From NCBI GenBank assembly GCA_017536845.1, contig JAFWCP010000004.1, forward strand, positions 1-7,663: a stretch of 7,663 nt of DNA, given 5' to 3'. Below, piece after piece: positions 1,240 through 7,663 of the stretch. The translations under genes were made by a program, and so were the position numbers. The first letter of the stretch is position 1. Every line of letters begins with the position of its first letter. Origin of the DNA: Solobacterium sp. (GTDB lineage Bacteria > Bacillota_I > Bacilli_A > Erysipelotrichales > Erysipelotrichaceae). The notes below the pieces were generated by a model, which ran no database searches, was not told the origin of the DNA, and saw only the letters and a program-made list of their open reading frames with translations.

Positions 1240-2403
1240 ATGAGCGAAGAGACTTTAAAGACAAAGGACATGGCATCGGAAACCGAGGAAAAGGGTTCGG
1301 AAGAAAACAAGGTAGCGGCGAAGAAAAAGTCTCCCGTCATCGAAAGACTGGCTGTCGAGAGCCAAGGGAAAAACACGGAGCGGGAACTGCTGAAGATGTC
1401 AGGGTGGGCAAGGAAGTATGGCCTCGCGCACCATCCGGCTTTCATTTCAGCGCTTCTGCTTCTGGCGGAGGCCACAGGCATCAGTTTCAGCCTGAAAACG
1501 GAAGTGACGATGGAACATGGCATGTATCGTGCGGATGCGTATATCCGTCTGCCGGAAAAGACGCGGACCGACAATTCGATCTTCGGGATCCTGAGCCGGT
1601 ATTCACCGTATTCCGTGATCGAGTTCAAATCCTTCTGGGATGATCTGTCCAGGCCTGTTCTGGCCAAAGGGGTGTATTACAAGGAAATGCTTTCTCACTC
1701 ATTGAGCAGGGAGGACCCGGACGCCGTCAGGATGGCAACGGTATACGCCGTGCCGGACATATCAAAAAGCCTGCTGGACTATTTCACAGTTCATGGGAAA
1801 ATTGAACTTGAAAAGCTGACAGATGGTGTTTATTCTGTCAGTAACTACAGTGCGGATCCCGTTTATATCGTGACTTACGGGAAACTGAAGGGGAAGGAAA
1901 ATGCCCTGCTGAGGATCTTTACCAGGGACGCAGGCTATGATGATTACAGGATTGTGGCAGAGTACATTGAGAAGATGGCAGAGGAAGGAAATGAAATCGG
2001 CAGGACGGAAGGGCTCCTGCTGAGTTATCTGGACAGAAGATTTCCGGAATACCGGCAGGCCAGGGCAAAAGAGAAAGGAAGTGACTTTATGACAGTCAGA
2101 GAGGATTGCTTAAGCAGGTATTTTGAAGTTGTGGATGAAAAGCTGGAAATGGAAAAAACGCTGGAAGAGCAGAAAAAAGCGTTGGAAGATCAGAAACGGC
2201 AATGGGCCGCAGAAAAAGAAAATCTGGAAGACACAGTGAAACTGCTTCGGGAAAAGATTGATGAACTGGAAAAGAACTCGGGCAGCGGCCTTTCTGCCGG
2301 TCAGAGTTCTGTTCTGCCAGCCCTGGCTGAAATCGGCAGGCAGGTGAAAAAGGCGGCCGGCAGATTCGGCATGCTGATATTCGGGATCGGGATGCTGAGA
2401 TAA
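1240..2403 (+). CDS. PD-(D/E)XK-nuclease-like protein with C-terminal coiled coil (Rpn-like)
   Basis: The 387-aa cytoplasmic protein starts at ATG 1240 behind a strong SD. The N-terminal ~30 residues are charged and low-complexity. A globular domain follows (about residues 45-270). Within it, D99 (in RADAYIRL) and E128-x-K130 (in VIEFKSF, after a predicted strand) are spaced like the D...(D/E)-x-K catalytic core of PD-(D/E)XK nucleases, including the Rpn / transposase-like nuclease families of Bacillota. I cannot name the exact family. From about residue 300 a coiled coil follows (EKTLEEQKKALEDQKR and onward to REKIDELEKN), then a Gly/Ser linker and a helix. The last 11 residues (GMLIFGIGMLR) do not match the second copy downstream, which ends RFSSFCRETIRLIQ and on, so this C-terminus appears to have been cut by a duplication junction. 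Met284 could serve as an internal start. Alternative: a non-catalytic scaffold of the same fold. Confidence 0.75.
   Translation: MSEETLKTKDMASETEEKGSEENKVAAKKKSPVIERLAVESQGKNTERELLKMSGWARKYGLAHHPAFISALLLLAEATGISFSLKTEVTMEHGMYRADAYIRLPEKTRTDNSIFGILSRYSPYSVIEFKSFWDDLSRPVLAKGVYYKEMLSHSLSREDPDAVRMATVYAVPDISKSLLDYFTVHGKIELEKLTDGVYSVSNYSADPVYIVTYGKLKGKENALLRIFTRDAGYDDYRIVAEYIEKMAEEGNEIGRTEGLLLSYLDRRFPEYRQARAKEKGSDFMTVREDCLSRYFEVVDEKLEMEKTLEEQKKALEDQKRQWAAEKENLEDTVKLLREKIDELEKNSGSGLSAGQSSVLPALAEIGRQVKKAAGRFGMLIFGIGMLR
2074..2091 (+). promoter_or_regulatory. Putative internal ribosome binding site and in-frame start (Met284)
   Basis: Inside the nuclease-like gene, AAAGGAAG (2074-2081) sits 7 nt before an in-frame ATG (2089-2091). 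Translation from here would give a 104-aa C-terminal protein (2089-2403) that lacks the nuclease core and keeps the coiled coil. The same ribosome-binding sequence, spacer and ATG recur in the downstream copy (2445-2462), where the upstream nuclease domain is absent. E. coli rpn genes are known to make C-terminal inhibitory proteins from such in-frame internal starts; use of this site here is inference. Confidence 0.4.
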
Positions 2404-2444
2404 GCAACTGCTTTCCGGGATACCGGAAGGCAAGAGCCAAAGAG

Positions 2445-2452
2445 AAAGGAAG
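2445..2452 (+). promoter_or_regulatory. Ribosome binding site of the C-terminal-only copy
   Basis: AAAGGAAG with a 7-nt spacer (TGACTTT) to ATG 2460, identical to the internal site in the full gene at 2074-2088. Confidence 0.55.
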
Positions 2453-2459
2453 TGACTTT

Positions 2460-2831
2460 ATGACAGTCAGAGAGGATTGCTTAAGCAGGTATTTTGCAGT
2501 TGTGGATGAAAAGCTGGAAATGGAAAAAAAATTGTCCGACAAGGACAAAGCACTGGAAGATAAGGACAAAGCACTGGAAGATAAGGACAAAGCACTGGCT
2601 GATAAGGACAAAGCGTTGGAAGATGAGAAAAATACAGTGCGGATGCTTCGGGAAAAGATTGATGAACTGGAAAAGAACTCGGGCAGCGGCCCGTCTGCCG
2701 GTCAGAGTTCTGTTCTGCCAGCCCTTGCTGAAATCGGCAGGCAGGTGAAAAGAACAGCTGACCGCTTCAGCAGTTTCTGCAGGGAGACGATCAGGCTGAT
2801 TCAAAATCTGAATCAGGAATTCAATGTATGA
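2460..2831 (+). CDS. C-terminal-only copy of the nuclease-like protein (coiled coil; antitoxin-like or remnant)
   Basis: The 123-aa ORF begins at the ATG corresponding to Met284 of the upstream gene and uses the same SD. Residues 1-25 (MTVREDCLSRYF and on) match the upstream protein except one Ala/Glu change. Residues 27-54 are four heptads of DKDKALE type that form a highly charged coiled coil. RMLREKIDELEKN and the Gly/Ser linker with SAGQSSVLPALAEIGRQVK then match again. The C-terminal helix (RFSSFCRETIRLIQNL) has no counterpart in the upstream protein and is probably the family's original ending. There is no nuclease core. It lies 56 bp past the upstream stop, so both could be translated from one transcript. 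It is either a decaying 3' fragment or a functional small partner that hetero-oligomerises with the full-length protein through the coiled coil. The reading frame is intact and the repeats are in frame, which mildly favours function. Confidence 0.55.
   Translation: MTVREDCLSRYFAVVDEKLEMEKKLSDKDKALEDKDKALEDKDKALADKDKALEDEKNTVRMLREKIDELEKNSGSGPSAGQSSVLPALAEIGRQVKRTADRFSSFCRETIRLIQNLNQEFNV
2538..2621 (+). repeat. Four tandem 21-bp (7-aa) coiled-coil repeats
   Basis: The four 21-bp units start at 2538, 2559, 2580 and 2601 and encode DKDKALE, DKDKALE, DKDKALA and DKDKALE. Units differ by one to a few bases. A 7-residue period keeps both the reading frame and the heptad register, so copy number can change without breaking the coiled coil. 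The upstream paralogue has only related, non-identical heptads (EEQKKAL, EDQKRQW) here. Confidence 0.95.
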
Positions 2832-2887: not shown

Positions 2888-5800
2888 ATGATCGCAAAGA
2901 AAGCATTTTCCATTCTGGCATCTCTTGGCATGGCGCTTACCGTAACGGTACCTGCCTATGCAGAAGAAACAGAGATTCAGGCGAAGGGCTATACGGATGT
3001 CGGCTATACCGTTCTCGATGAATGGCTAGGCCCGACAGGCACGTATCCGGCCCGTCACATCAGCGGCTTTGACCTGACATTTGCCGGTGAGCCGGAAGGC
3101 GTTGAACCCGGTGACTTCACTGTCATTGACGAAGAGTATGAAGCTGCCGGTACGTTTGACAACGGCGTCCTGACCGTATCAGCGGCTGCTGCTGAAGGAA
3201 ACACGGTAAAACTCACCATACCGGCCGATAAGGCATCAACAGCGATGGCATATACCGGCGGCCTGGATTTCCGGAGAAGAAAGGTTTCCTACCGCATTGT
3301 CATCAACAATGATATCAAGGCAAAGGACGGCAAGGTCCTTGCCGCGGCCGGTGATTTCGTCAAGGTCACACAGGATGAAATCGAACAGATCGGTACAGGA
3401 AGATTTGAAGAACTGGTCCTGACCAGCGACAATGCCGGCAATAACATCTACCTGATGGTTTCCCTGCCGGAAAACTATGATGAAAACGGCAGTTATCCGC
3501 ATGTCTTCCATGTGACAGGCGGCGGCCAGCAGTACAAGAAGAATCAGAATCTGGACCCGGAAATCTATGGCGAAGACAATTTCGGTGTAGGCGTTGACTG
3601 CGATTATGCGCCGTACACCTTCGCTACCCAGGATGAAGATACCATCGTGGTGACCTTCCAGTCCATCGGCCAGCGTGACCTGCAGCCGGAAGGCTACAGC
3701 TACAGCAAGGACGTCAACCAGGCAGTGGAATACTTCCTGGACAACTATGCCGTTGACAGCAGCAGGGTGTATGCGGTAGGCAACTCCATGGGCGGCAACA
3801 TCATGTCTGAAGCTGTTGCCATGAGGCCTGACCTCTATGCGGCATACGTTCCCTGCAATACAAGCATTGTCATGGGCACCCAGAGAATCGATCCGGAAGA
3901 TACGGAAAACGAGATTTACCAGAAGTGCCTGTCCTATGTCAGAAGCTATATCTCGGAAGAAGTTGCCATCAGCTTCAATGCCGGCCGCAATGACCCGACC
4001 GGTTCCTGGGCGAGCGATCAGCTGCCGTATCAGATGCTGGTGGATGAATACAAGGCTGCCGGTTATACCGATGAACAGATCAGTGAACTCGTGCAGATGC
4101 ATACCTATGAGGATGAGGATTTCCACGCCGTAGGTTCCCATTACTACCATGGTGCAACCGGCCTGATGTGCCTGAACAAGGATGTTCTGGCCTGGGTCTA
4201 CAGGCAGCAGAAGCCGGAAACCCGGGTGTCTGAAACTGCCAATGACTTCGCGAAGGTCTACGGTTACAGCGCTGCCGCGGCAATGACTTACAGAAGTGAA
4301 AACGGCCTTGCGACGCCGACCTTCCTGGTTTACCCAGACGGCCAGGTATCCCGACTGCAGGCGGAAAAGCTCCTCGAAGATATGGGAATCTTCGATATCG
4401 TTGATGAAGAAAACGGTGCCGTATATGTGATCAATCCGGCCGAAGCGGAATACAGCAGCGCTGATGCGGAAGCATTTGTCTCCCTGCTCGATGTCCTGAC
4501 CCCGATGGCCATGAACACCAAGCTGATCGGCATCGGCAGCGGTTCCACCTTTATAAGCAATGAACTCAATGAAAAGCTCTGGTCCGTTGCCGGCCTCATG
4601 CTGTATGGCGGCGAAGAAGGCAAACCGGTGAAATACGCGGTTCCCGCCTATATCAGCGGCACATCCGGCAAGGCATATACCGATGCCGCGGATGCGGAAA
4701 ACGAGTTTGAAAAGGTGATTGTTTCCGAAAACGAAGAAACACTCGGTGAAGCATTTGCCAATGCCTGGAAGGAAATCTTTGTCAAGAACGGCCGGGTAGG
4801 CAATATCACCGGCACGTTCTACACAAAGCCGACTTCCATCGAACGTCCGTTTGAATACTTCTCTTATCTTGACTGCGCGAGCATGGGCATTCAGAGAACT
4901 GTCGTCGATACGTATGATTTTGATGGCGACGGCATCATGAACCTGTGGTATGAGTACCTGCCCGAGGCAACTGTGGAAGCCCCTGCTTCCAGCGTCCCGA
5001 TGGTCCTTCTGCTCCATGGCAATACCAATGACCCGAGAACCCAGGCCAATACTTCCGGCTGGCCGAAGGTGGCAGCTGAAAACGGCATCATCCTGGTGGA
5101 ACCGGAATGGCAGGGCGGCATGGTCAGCGGTACGCAGATCGACGCGATGACCGAAGATGACAGCACCTCCGAAAACAATGACATCATCAAGATGCTTGAT
5201 GTCGTGCTGGCAAAGTATCCGCAGATTGATGCTTCCCGTATCTATGTCGAAGGTCTTTCCCGCGGTTCGGTCAACTCCATCAACATCGCTTTGACAAATC
5301 CCGACATCTTTGCGGCTGTCGGTGCCCATTCTGCCGGCACCATGGAAAACTTCTATGACGGACTGATGGAATATGCACAGGCCAGTGACTATGAAGTACC
5401 CATCTTCTTTATCGCCGGTGACAAGGACCAGTTCTATCCGCTGCCTGCCAAGGGCGAGAAGGGCAGTGTCTTCATGGCTCTGCAGCTTTACCAGGTCATT
5501 AACGGCCTTGAACCTTCAAAGTTTGAAGATCTTGCCCTGACTGAGGAAGACATCGACTTCGGCCTGAAGTTTGATGAATATCACAAGACTGAGAATGCCG
5601 GAACGCTGGATGTCCGTACAGGCGAACTGAAGAAAGATGGCAGAACCCTGATTTCGATGAACGCGGTTGATAACTGGGGCCATTGGAACTATGAACCTGC
5701 CGCTGCTCTGATGTGGGATTTCTTCAAGGATTTCACAAAGGATGCGGAAGACAGACATCCGGATATCCTGATCTATGACCGGACAGGAACAATGGATGAA

Positions 5801-7663
5801 TACTCCGTCAACACAGCTATTGATGTCCCGACCTTCATCATCTATCCGGATGAAGCGGTCGCAAGAGATGACAGAGATGCATATCTGGAAGAAACAGGCA
5901 TCAAGGCGAAGGTTGATGAACTTGGCGCAAAGGCGGTCATCATCAACCCGATTGACGGTGAATACGGCCAGGCTGACGCAGATGCCTTCCTGAGCAATGT
6001 TGATACAATCGGCTATACGCTGAATCTCAAGGTCATCGGCTTCGGCAAGGGTGCGACATTTGTCAACAAGTATGTCTCCAAGCTCGACTGGGCGGTTGCC
6101 GGCATCATGGCGGTGGGCGGTGAAGCCGCTGACAGCGTGAAGTATTCTGTTCCGGCTTATGTTTCCGGATCTGATGCGGCTGCCTATATTGAAGCCGACA
6201 AGGCAGAAAAGACAGCGGAAGAAGGAACAATGACAACCTATGTCAATCCTGACAACCATTTTGAAATCGTTGTTGCCAACAGTGCGGAAGAAACACCGGC
6301 AGAAGCATTTGCCAACGCCTGGGATACCGTGCTTGTCAGAAACGGCAAGGTCGGCAACATCACCGGAACATGGTATACACAGCCTCTGTCCAGGGAAAGG
6401 CAGTTTGAATACTTCACCTTCCTGAATCTGGAAGCCCTCGGCCTTAACAGAAACGTTGTATCTGATGTTGATATGGACGGTGATGGTCTGAACAACCTCT
6501 GGTATGAATACTATACCGACGCATTCAATGACGCAGAAGCAGGCACTGTTCCTGTGGTGGTCATGCTGCACGGAAATGGCAATGACCCGAGAACGCAGGC
6601 CACAACCTCCGGCTGGGCACCCCTTGCCGCAGAAGAAGGCATCCTGCTTATCGAAGCGGAGCATCAGGGCGGCATCGTCGGCGGCACAGAATATGATGCA
6701 ATGAGCTTCGATGATTCCATGACGAAGGAAAACGGCATCATTGATATGATTGGTCTGCTGAAGGAAAAGTATCCGCAGATTGATGAGAACCGGATTTACG
6801 TGGAAGGCCTTTCCAAAGGCTCAGTCAACTCCATCGTTCTGGGCATCATGCATCCGGAAGTCTTCGCGGCAGCAGGCGGCCATTCCGCCGGCATCATGGG
6901 CCGTTACTACGATGCCCTGCTCGAGGAAGTGGAAGCAGTCAAGGATGATATTGATACACCGCTCTATCTCACCGGCGGCACAAAGGATACCTTCCCGATG
7001 ATTGAAAAGGGTGAAAACGGCGGTGCTCTGCTGGCAATTCAGCTCTATGAAATGCTCAATGAACTGCCTGTTACCACATTTGATGAACTCAGCTATGACA
7101 ACTCGAAGTATCTGGGCATGGTCTTTGATGAGTTCGGCGTGGAAGACACAGAAGGCTATGCACCTGTCTACAGCGGCAAGATCATGAAGGACGGCAAGGT
7201 CCAGCTCAACATCAACGCGATTGAGGACTGGGGCCACTGGAACCTGGAAGCTTCAGCTGAACTGATGTGGGACTTCTTCAAACAGCATACCCTCAACGAA
7301 AATGTCAATGGATTCTTCGATGAGGAAGGCAATAAGGTTGTCCTGAAGCAGCTTGACGAAAAACTGTACTGGTTTGAAAACGGTGAACAGCAGGGCGTTT
7401 ACGGCGATCCGCTGAACATCTGGGATACCCAGTATGACAGGATCGAAAGAGGCCGTGAAATCTATGATCCCGAAACAGATGCCTGGTACTGGCTGGATGC
7501 CAATGATAACGGCGCGGTTGCAAGGGACAAGGAAGTCTGGATGCCTTACATCTTCCAGGGTGAAAACCCGGCTACCGAAGGTAAGTGGGTGCGCTATGAC
7601 AAGTATGGCCAGATGGTCAAGGGCTGGTATGCAAACGACAACGGCGTTTACTACTATGACCTG
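2888..7663 (+). CDS. Secreted giant multi-domain esterase/PHB-depolymerase-like hydrolase with wall-binding C-terminus (3' partial)
   Basis: The frame stays open for 1592 codons to the window edge; no stop is seen. Residues 1-25 are a signal peptide (KK, hydrophobic core, AYA before EE). A beta-rich, possibly Ig-like segment follows (~27-145). Hydrolase 1 (~160-440) has a GNSMGG elbow with Ser300, D369 and H418 or H421 as likely triad. Two repeat units follow. Unit 1 (478-949) has a degenerate hydrolase-like part with GIGSG (Gly550 where Ser is expected), a DFDGDG loop (677-682), then an intact hydrolase: HG at 710, GLSRG Ser791, D847, WGHW His932. Unit 2 (982-1467) repeats this: GFGKG (Gly1053), DMDGDG (1195-1200), HG at 1228, GLSKG Ser1309, D1367, WGHW His1450. 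From 1475 a Trp/Tyr-rich wall-binding module begins (WYWLDANDNG, GKWVRYDKYGQMVKGW). Likely a surface-attached carboxylesterase or polyester/feruloyl-type esterase; the substrate is unknown. The triad residues are assigned by motif and spacing only. Confidence 0.9.
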   Translation, partial: MIAKKAFSILASLGMALTVTVPAYAEETEIQAKGYTDVGYTVLDEWLGPTGTYPARHISGFDLTFAGEPEGVEPGDFTVIDEEYEAAGTFDNGVLTVSAAAAEGNTVKLTIPADKASTAMAYTGGLDFRRRKVSYRIVINNDIKAKDGKVLAAAGDFVKVTQDEIEQIGTGRFEELVLTSDNAGNNIYLMVSLPENYDENGSYPHVFHVTGGGQQYKKNQNLDPEIYGEDNFGVGVDCDYAPYTFATQDEDTIVVTFQSIGQRDLQPEGYSYSKDVNQAVEYFLDNYAVDSSRVYAVGNSMGGNIMSEAVAMRPDLYAAYVPCNTSIVMGTQRIDPEDTENEIYQKCLSYVRSYISEEVAISFNAGRNDPTGSWASDQLPYQMLVDEYKAAGYTDEQISELVQMHTYEDEDFHAVGSHYYHGATGLMCLNKDVLAWVYRQQKPETRVSETANDFAKVYGYSAAAAMTYRSENGLATPTFLVYPDGQVSRLQAEKLLEDMGIFDIVDEENGAVYVINPAEAEYSSADAEAFVSLLDVLTPMAMNTKLIGIGSGSTFISNELNEKLWSVAGLMLYGGEEGKPVKYAVPAYISGTSGKAYTDAADAENEFEKVIVSENEETLGEAFANAWKEIFVKNGRVGNITGTFYTKPTSIERPFEYFSYLDCASMGIQRTVVDTYDFDGDGIMNLWYEYLPEATVEAPASSVPMVLLLHGNTNDPRTQANTSGWPKVAAENGIILVEPEWQGGMVSGTQIDAMTEDDSTSENNDIIKMLDVVLAKYPQIDASRIYVEGLSRGSVNSINIALTNPDIFAAVGAHSAGTMENFYDGLMEYAQASDYEVPIFFIAGDKDQFYPLPAKGEKGSVFMALQLYQVINGLEPSKFEDLALTEEDIDFGLKFDEYHKTENAGTLDVRTGELKKDGRTLISMNAVDNWGHWNYEPAAALMWDFFKDFTKDAEDRHPDILIYDRTGTMDEYSVNTAIDVPTFIIYPDEAVARDDRDAYLEETGIKAKVDELGAKAVIINPIDGEYGQADADAFLSNVDTIGYTLNLKVIGFGKGATFVNKYVSKLDWAVAGIMAVGGEAADSVKYSVPAYVSGSDAAAYIEADKAEKTAEEGTMTTYVNPDNHFEIVVANSAEETPAEAFANAWDTVLVRNGKVGNITGTWYTQPLSRERQFEYFTFLNLEALGLNRNVVSDVDMDGDGLNNLWYEYYTDAFNDAEAGTVPVVVMLHGNGNDPRTQATTSGWAPLAAEEGILLIEAEHQGGIVGGTEYDAMSFDDSMTKENGIIDMIGLLKEKYPQIDENRIYVEGLSKGSVNSIVLGIMHPEVFAAAGGHSAGIMGRYYDALLEEVEAVKDDIDTPLYLTGGTKDTFPMIEKGENGGALLAIQLYEMLNELPVTTFDELSYDNSKYLGMVFDEFGVEDTEGYAPVYSGKIMKDGKVQLNINAIEDWGHWNLEASAELMWDFFKQHTLNENVNGFFDEEGNKVVLKQLDEKLYWFENGEQQGVYGDPLNIWDTQYDRIERGREIYDPETDAWYWLDANDNGAVARDKEVWMPYIFQGENPATEGKWVRYDKYGQMVKGWYANDNGVYYYDL
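4319..5734 (+). repeat. Internal unit 1: pseudo-hydrolase + Ca-like loop + hydrolase
   Basis: Residues 478-949 of the hydrolase, from PTFLVYPDG to WDFFKDF. It is paired with unit 2 (5831-7288). Key catalytic positions in the hydrolase half (His710, Ser791, His932) and the Ca-like loop (Asp677) are each exactly 518 residues from their unit-2 partners (1228, 1309, 1450, 1195). The degenerate half is shifted by about 15 residues through insertions in unit 2. Many positions match at the protein level, but the DNA has diverged, so the duplication is old. Confidence 0.85.
5831..7288 (+). repeat. Internal unit 2: pseudo-hydrolase + Ca-like loop + hydrolase
   Basis: Residues 982-1467, from PTFIIYPDE to WDFFKQH. 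It has the same order as unit 1: degenerate elbow GFGKG at 1051-1055, VPAYVSG strand, AEAFANAW and VGNITGTWYT stretch, DMDGDG loop, VPVVVMLHG oxyanion strand, GLSKGSVNS elbow, WGHW. It has an extra insert after AAYIEADKA of about 15 residues compared with unit 1. It joins directly to the wall-binding module. Confidence 0.85.
7310..7663 (+). other. Start of a C-terminal cell-wall-binding module within the hydrolase
   Basis: Residues 1475-1592 are rich in Trp, Tyr, Gly, Asp and Asn (YWFENGEQQG, DPETDAWYWLDANDNG, GKWVRYDKYGQMVKGWYAN). This layout resembles the C-terminal wall-attachment modules of many gut Bacillota surface proteins, related to choline/glucan-binding (CW_1-like) repeats. Further repeats probably continue beyond the window. 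Confidence 0.7.

Follow-up and report, generated by a model that had tools for sequence, protein, structure and literature searches.

A candidate PD-(D/E)XK nuclease gene of Solobacterium with an internal start signal and a free-standing copy of its own tail

The nuclease-like gene and its tail copy

The window analysed here, a 7,663-nt stretch at the start of Solobacterium sp. contig JAFWCP010000004.1, contains a gene for a 387-aa protein, followed 56 nt after its stop codon by the ATG of a 123-aa ORF (Table 1). Both ORFs were present as claimed in a preliminary description of this DNA, which had also regarded the short one as the C-terminal segment of the long one; this was borne out by an alignment to residues 284-377 of the 387-aa protein, with 72 of 104 columns identical (69%, E 1e-42). 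The start signal said to be shared by the two genes is an 18-base SD-ATG string, AAAGGAAGTGACTTTATG, with just two occurrences on the window's + strand, one in frame within the 387-aa ORF (2074) and one preceding the 123-aa ORF (2445). The SD ahead of position 1240 is also strong (duplex energy -12.6 for pairing with the 16S tail).

Table 1. Features of the nuclease-like gene and its tail copy, with positions in the window
Feature	Position	Strand	Basis
Toxin-like L form, 387 aa: helical-tailed protein, likely a PD-(D/E)XK nuclease	1240..2403	+	ORF; upstream SD; conserved residues
Core domain, residues 60-262, query for the family searches	1417..2025	+	Alignment A7; profile comparisons
Internal SD and spacer preceding in-frame ATG 2089	2074..2088	+	Duplex energy -15.2; synonymous redraws
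S form, 104 aa: the tail alone, predicted from the internal start	2089..2403	+	Internal SD-ATG; inferred product
Duplicated stretch with copied SD, ahead of the free gene	2412..2459	+	Homology from 48 nt upstream of the ATG
123-aa free-standing tail gene (candidate separate inhibitor)	2460..2831	+	69% identity to residues 284-377; SD energy -15.2
21-nt (heptad, coiled-coil) repeats, outnumbering those of the long gene	2517..2640	+	Repeat family D1

At the DNA level the repeat consists of two matching pairs, 2041-2193 with 2412-2564 (88% identity) and 2218-2371 with 2619-2772 (86%), and the indels between the tail of the long gene and the free copy, of 21 and 9 nt, are all in frame. The 123-aa protein carries more heptad repeats than the long gene and has its own last ~20 residues. 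An assembly duplicate was ruled out as the source of the 123-aa ORF, because the copies differ in sequence and the repeat is thus no assembly echo. Over 94 codons the two tails showed a dN of 0.153 and a dS of 0.358. No terminator-like site was found on the + strand between 900 and 2950, so a single transcript could span both genes. No Rfam family was matched in the window.

Family membership and distribution

Among 5.8 billion proteins, the only close relative of the 387-aa protein (P0001) was P0003, which is 85% identical, and three large protein searches returned nothing beyond P0001, P0003 and P0004. In two of these searches scoring was limited to the ~8000 candidates with the most shared words, among which coiled-coil words probably displaced others; moreover, hits depend on 5-residue words in common with the query, and distant relatives may therefore be missed. 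Scans of the genome_contigs, plasmids, phages and viral_contigs sets with P0001 found no relative, and viral_contigs gave no match to three other family members either.

Same-family genome searches revealed relatives at about 15-29% core identity. The whole-protein search matched 14 of 272 genomes at E 0.01, most of them judged to be fortuitous hits to the coiled coils of other proteins (L009 and L011 were inspected); weak core matches were also found in G058 and G185. An 11-sequence profile matched seven of the 272 genomes at E 1e-5, with a core match in G047, G060 and G065 only, while the other four matched from model position 202 on, that is, in the tail part. Matches of profiles A5 and A6 to the EGREEG tails of other genes were excluded from membership. 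Four of 149 relatives of G060 matched, as did one of 395 genomes in a class sample and one of 392 in a phylum sample, both matches being G060 itself.

Profile comparison linked the window core to the main G060 group with a probability of 97.6%, and the L072/L069 group to the same G060 group with 97.5%. The direct comparisons of the window with L072/L069 and with L068 were weaker (39% and 45%), so its tie to these members runs mainly through G060. These sequences appear to form an unannotated, PD-(D/E)XK-like family which, as far as sampled, is confined to Erysipelotrichaceae-group genomes; no paper describing it was found in text searches of an open-licence library. Two distinct family nucleases lie on the same strand ~1.6 kb apart at L042 (G060:C195); the second is followed downstream by a free copy of its tail, and G060 also contains broken family genes.

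Conserved residues of the core

An acidic residue, a D and an E-x-K motif form the pattern of PD-(D/E)XK enzymes, whose core fold is alpha-beta-beta-beta-alpha-beta. This residue signature, a catalytic D and E-x-K with an upstream acidic residue, is present in the family. D99, E128 and K130 were where the preliminary description had placed them and, together with E88, which it had not named, were invariant in seven of seven members, five of these distant. Over 11 members, E88 was kept in all and D99, E128 and K130 each in at least 90%. The visible exception was L044 (4060-4851; the same protein as P0004, which is present in six contigs), where the equivalents of D99, E128 and K130 are lost and the frame is still open; it is possibly a pseudo-enzyme or a decaying copy. 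The retention of these residues in distant relatives supports the identification of the family as putative PD-(D/E)XK nucleases, in agreement with the PD-(D/E)XK-like catalytic signature proposed earlier.

AlphaFold2 models built on 2- and 3-sequence alignments had a mean pLDDT of 46.9 and 43.8. They displayed a helix-strand-strand-(gap)-helix-strand order compatible with PD-(D/E)XK, the E-x-K strand not being formed, and are unusable at these pLDDT values, so the PD-(D/E)XK fold is a putative one, proposed from residue conservation. PDB sequence and profile searches gave matches at chance level, with no nuclease among the profile matches. The 387-aa protein and 12 family cores had no convincing match to the core in Pfam, NCBIfam or PHROG, the best PHROG match (E 0.0056, in three of the 12 cores) being to a PHROG of unknown function. 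Likeness to the CARF-PDDEXK proteins of PADLOC (CARF_PDDEXK, PDLC01899) was restricted to one paralog, L042a, which matched weakly (E 7.6e-4) from its own E-x-K onward, within the nuclease part of the model; as one of 12 members, it gives a hint only.

A probable internal start at the core/tail boundary

In ten family genes, every in-frame ATG was ranked by the pairing energy of its upstream bases with the 16S tail. ATG 2089, with an energy of -15.2, was the best of the 11 in-frame ATGs of the window gene, and the top-ranked SD-ATG coincided with the core/tail boundary in eight of the ten genes. The boundary ATG of L042a ranked second, behind an ATG five codons from the gene end, and the best ATG of the catalytically decayed L044 was elsewhere, at residue 233. 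With L044 left out, a rough chance estimate for at least eight of nine genes having their best ATG at the boundary was 1e-5, a value which is indicative only, because the genes are related and the L072/L069 boundaries were set once the tail was known.

Synonymous-codon redraws were used to separate the effect of the codons from that of the peptide at the SD. The internal SD of the window was reached by 0.15% of the redraws (0.0015), and values of 5% or less were obtained in four of nine genes (Fisher 6e-5, which overstates independence because the genes are related); L043 fell just above this level (0.0525), and the weak internal SD of L072 (energy -5.4; redraw value 0.80) was not codon-favoured. 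The peptides overlapping the SD differ among genes, so the kept feature looks like a ribosome signal. Alternatively, the internal SD-ATG could be unused, its resemblance to a start being a by-product of E/K/G-rich coding at a domain junction, as might be argued from the redraw values above 0.05 at five of the nine sites and from the overstated combined value. However, the effect is position-specific, being found at the boundary of eight of ten genes, whereas 80 other in-frame ATGs of the ten genes gave only two values of 5% or less (median 0.59), and we consider this alternative very improbable. The in-frame internal start of the preliminary description therefore looks real, with its ATG best-ranked in most genes and a codon bias towards the SD.

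Free-standing tail copies in relatives

Ten family loci, each with at least 150 nt downstream, were inspected for tail copies; L046, L052 and L069 (cut by contig ends), L071 (an N-terminal piece at a contig end), the fragments at L048 (two), L049 and L044:1875-2477, and P0003 were left out of the count. A copy of the gene's own tail was found downstream on the same strand at six of the ten loci, namely the window, L050, L045, L042a and L043 of G060, and L072 of G065, and was not found at L042b, L068, L070 and L044; four of the six are from G060, and few lineages are sampled. The two-gene layout that had been proposed for relatives is thus recurrent, and its copies are mostly open: one of the six is broken at its start (L043, which lacks the first residues and has lost the SD-ATG, leaving no clear start) and one is shortened by a stop codon (L072).

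Five of the six copies have their start at the position of the internal-start ATG. Homology sets in 48 nt before the ATG in the window, 61 nt before it in L050, 12 nt in L042a and 14 nt in L072, and the L045 copy, which runs to the contig end, has the same initial codons with its own SD in front. The internal and free start signals are GCGAGGAGGATAAAAAAATG and GTGAGGAGGATACAAACGATG in L050, and GAGGAGTTAATCATG and CGGAGAAATTAATCATG in L042a, where the free SD is weaker. Distances from the nuclease stop to the free ATG were 56, 454, 161, 803 and 77 nt across five loci. As a control, 79 ORFs from this DNA were examined, and for five of them the C-terminal part was matched further downstream: the antisense of the window repeat, a whole tandem hypB-like gene (L072), its presumed counterpart in L069 from another genome, and two which were read as neighbouring permease genes. 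No tail-only copy was seen among these controls, indicating that the tail copy of the window is more than chance. A search with P0002 as query gave no match in any of six genomes, G060, G047 and G065 included.

By eye, the tails of the window, L072, L042a and L050 are unrelated to one another, suggesting at least four separate budding events. The tail repeats are heptads in the window, G047 and G065 and of an EGxx type in G060, with copy numbers that vary between copies. Two closely related tails in G047 (L068:4983-5828 and L070:4114-4515) differ in their heptad counts, as Rpn tails do in their four-residue repeats.

The 123-aa ORF could also be a functionless fragment in decay, left behind when part of a tandem duplicate was deleted. 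The L043 copy without a clear start, the shortened L072 copy, the broken family genes in G060 and the four of ten loci without a copy fit this reading, which we nevertheless regard as unlikely, since six of ten loci have an own-tail copy on the same strand, five of these six retain an ATG at the internal-start position, and the frame in the window has stayed open across in-frame indels. In addition, dN was lower than dS in the tail pairs of the window, L072 (0.093 and 0.568) and L042 (0.212 and 0.336), although a constrained nuclease copy alone could explain part of this difference.

Comparison with Rpn and PF12784 proteins

According to Zhong et al. (2023, PMC10327210), rpn genes encode the toxic nuclease RpnL, which is blocked by RpnS, its own tail made separately from an internal start; free-standing RpnS genes, independently derived, lie downstream of E. 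coli rpnE (ypaA) and rpnC. The Rpn proteins (COG5464, PF04754; E. coli and C. difficile), as covered there, resemble the present family in their PD-(D/E)XK-type core, putative in the family, in a variable repeat-rich helical tail, in the internal ribosome-binding site and start for the tail, here predicted from sequence, and in some cases (after rpnE and rpnC) in a free-standing tail gene downstream. In contrast, the family has E-x-K, with K130 nearly invariant, where Rpn has E-x-Q, a glutamine which Kingston et al. (2017, PMC5350276) present as characteristic of Rpn and unusual elsewhere in PD-(D/E)XK enzymes, and whose change to lysine in RpnA (Q84K) abolished activity. Rpn tails consist of four-residue repeats, as opposed to the heptads of the window, G047 and G065, although G060 members do carry tails of the EGxx type; the family is far narrower in its distribution among the genomes sampled.

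Neither the 387-aa protein nor any of the 12 cores matched the Rpn models in Pfam and NCBIfam. Filing the family under Rpn was rejected because of this and of E-x-K in place of E-x-Q. The preliminary description had suggested that the locus may be a Bacillota version of rpn: its two-gene layout recurs at six of ten loci, but membership in Rpn did not hold. That an inhibitor became a separate gene, as it also suggested, is already reported for rpnE and rpnC in PMC10327210, and the two-gene layout is therefore not new; the novelty lies in how a family outside Rpn, by the features tested, has used it repeatedly. The family nonetheless likely works like Rpn.

PF12784 (PDDEXK_2) proteins were present in seven of seven genomes tested. 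Those of the Erysipelotrichaceae-group genomes share the EGREEG tail type with the family, but their core has no match to the family profile. The PF12784 genes of G060, G047 and G065 are on contigs other than those of the family genes, and those of G207 and G082 are the ones matched by profile A6 in the tail part only. In hhalign, family cores scored below 1% against the PF12784-type sets, a test in which RpnA alone also fails, so it leaves room for an old link.

Proposed mechanism

The explanation that we lean towards, as a reasonably probable one, is that of a nuclease toxin whose tail, made from within its gene, is the antitoxin, with a further antitoxin gene budded off; for each step of this scheme Rpn provides a tested precedent (PMC10327210). 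The long gene would encode a PD-(D/E)XK-type nuclease carrying a self-associating helical tail, and ribosomes would also start at the internal SD-ATG to produce the tail alone, which would keep the nuclease inactive by pairing with the same tail in full-length molecules. A tandem duplication that included the internal start signal would then have budded off the second tail gene, adding inhibitor whose dose and divergence could be independent. Release of the nuclease, with damage to DNA as the result, would follow a trigger, for which phage infection is a plausible candidate. The sequences themselves hold the conserved catalytic residues, the codon-biased internal SD and the recurring layout; the analogy with Rpn leads us to infer that the long protein is an active, toxic nuclease, that both small proteins are translated, that tails bind tails and thereby inhibit, and that the system has a putative role in defence. 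Evidence of a promoter or of a defence island at the window was not found, and this was counted against the model.

The sign of the small protein's effect cannot be read from the sequence, which gives a separately started oligomerising tail, and this tail could instead be a needed partner, a subunit for assembly or targeting of the nuclease such as Cas11d is for Cas10d; PMC10327210 mentions Cas11d among internal-start products with a complementary role. Such a role seems quite unlikely to us, given that RpnS, the closest tested analogue in the same source, inhibits, and that repeated extra copies would suit a dose-limited inhibitor at least equally well.

A broader proposal built on the toxin-antitoxin model is more tentative, and we hold it to be possible but somewhat doubtful: that an Erysipelotrichaceae-specific family of E-x-K nucleases came by the intragenic-antitoxin design in a second acquisition, separate from that of Rpn, and that its antitoxins keep budding at the internal start and diverge with their own nuclease. 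If true, intragenic antitoxins would be no peculiarity of Rpn, but a strategy open more generally to nucleases whose tails oligomerise, and the family would display the stages (no copy, young, diverged and broken copies) by which an overlapping toxin-antitoxin pair splits in two, that is, a repeated and visible route from a gene-within-a-gene system to an ordinary two-gene pair. The family also supplies unannotated candidate nucleases outside the descriptions of PADLOC.

Neighbouring features of the window

Upstream of the nuclease gene, a 45-nt leader-like stretch is doubled on the + strand (1009-1053 and 1148-1192, 89% identical), which could be what is left of a further duplication, or else a promoter region in two copies. 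Further upstream, on the - strand (416-934), a 172-aa protein is built from three cell-wall-binding repeats of the CW_7 type (PF08230, E 5e-67); no catalytic domain was recognised in it. Downstream of the tail gene, a long secreted-looking esterase (2888-7663, +) extends past the window end and contains at least two tandem PHB-depolymerase-like domains with 49% mutual identity; it has matches in three Erysipelotrichaceae metagenome assemblies (47-51%) and in one Blautia (28%).
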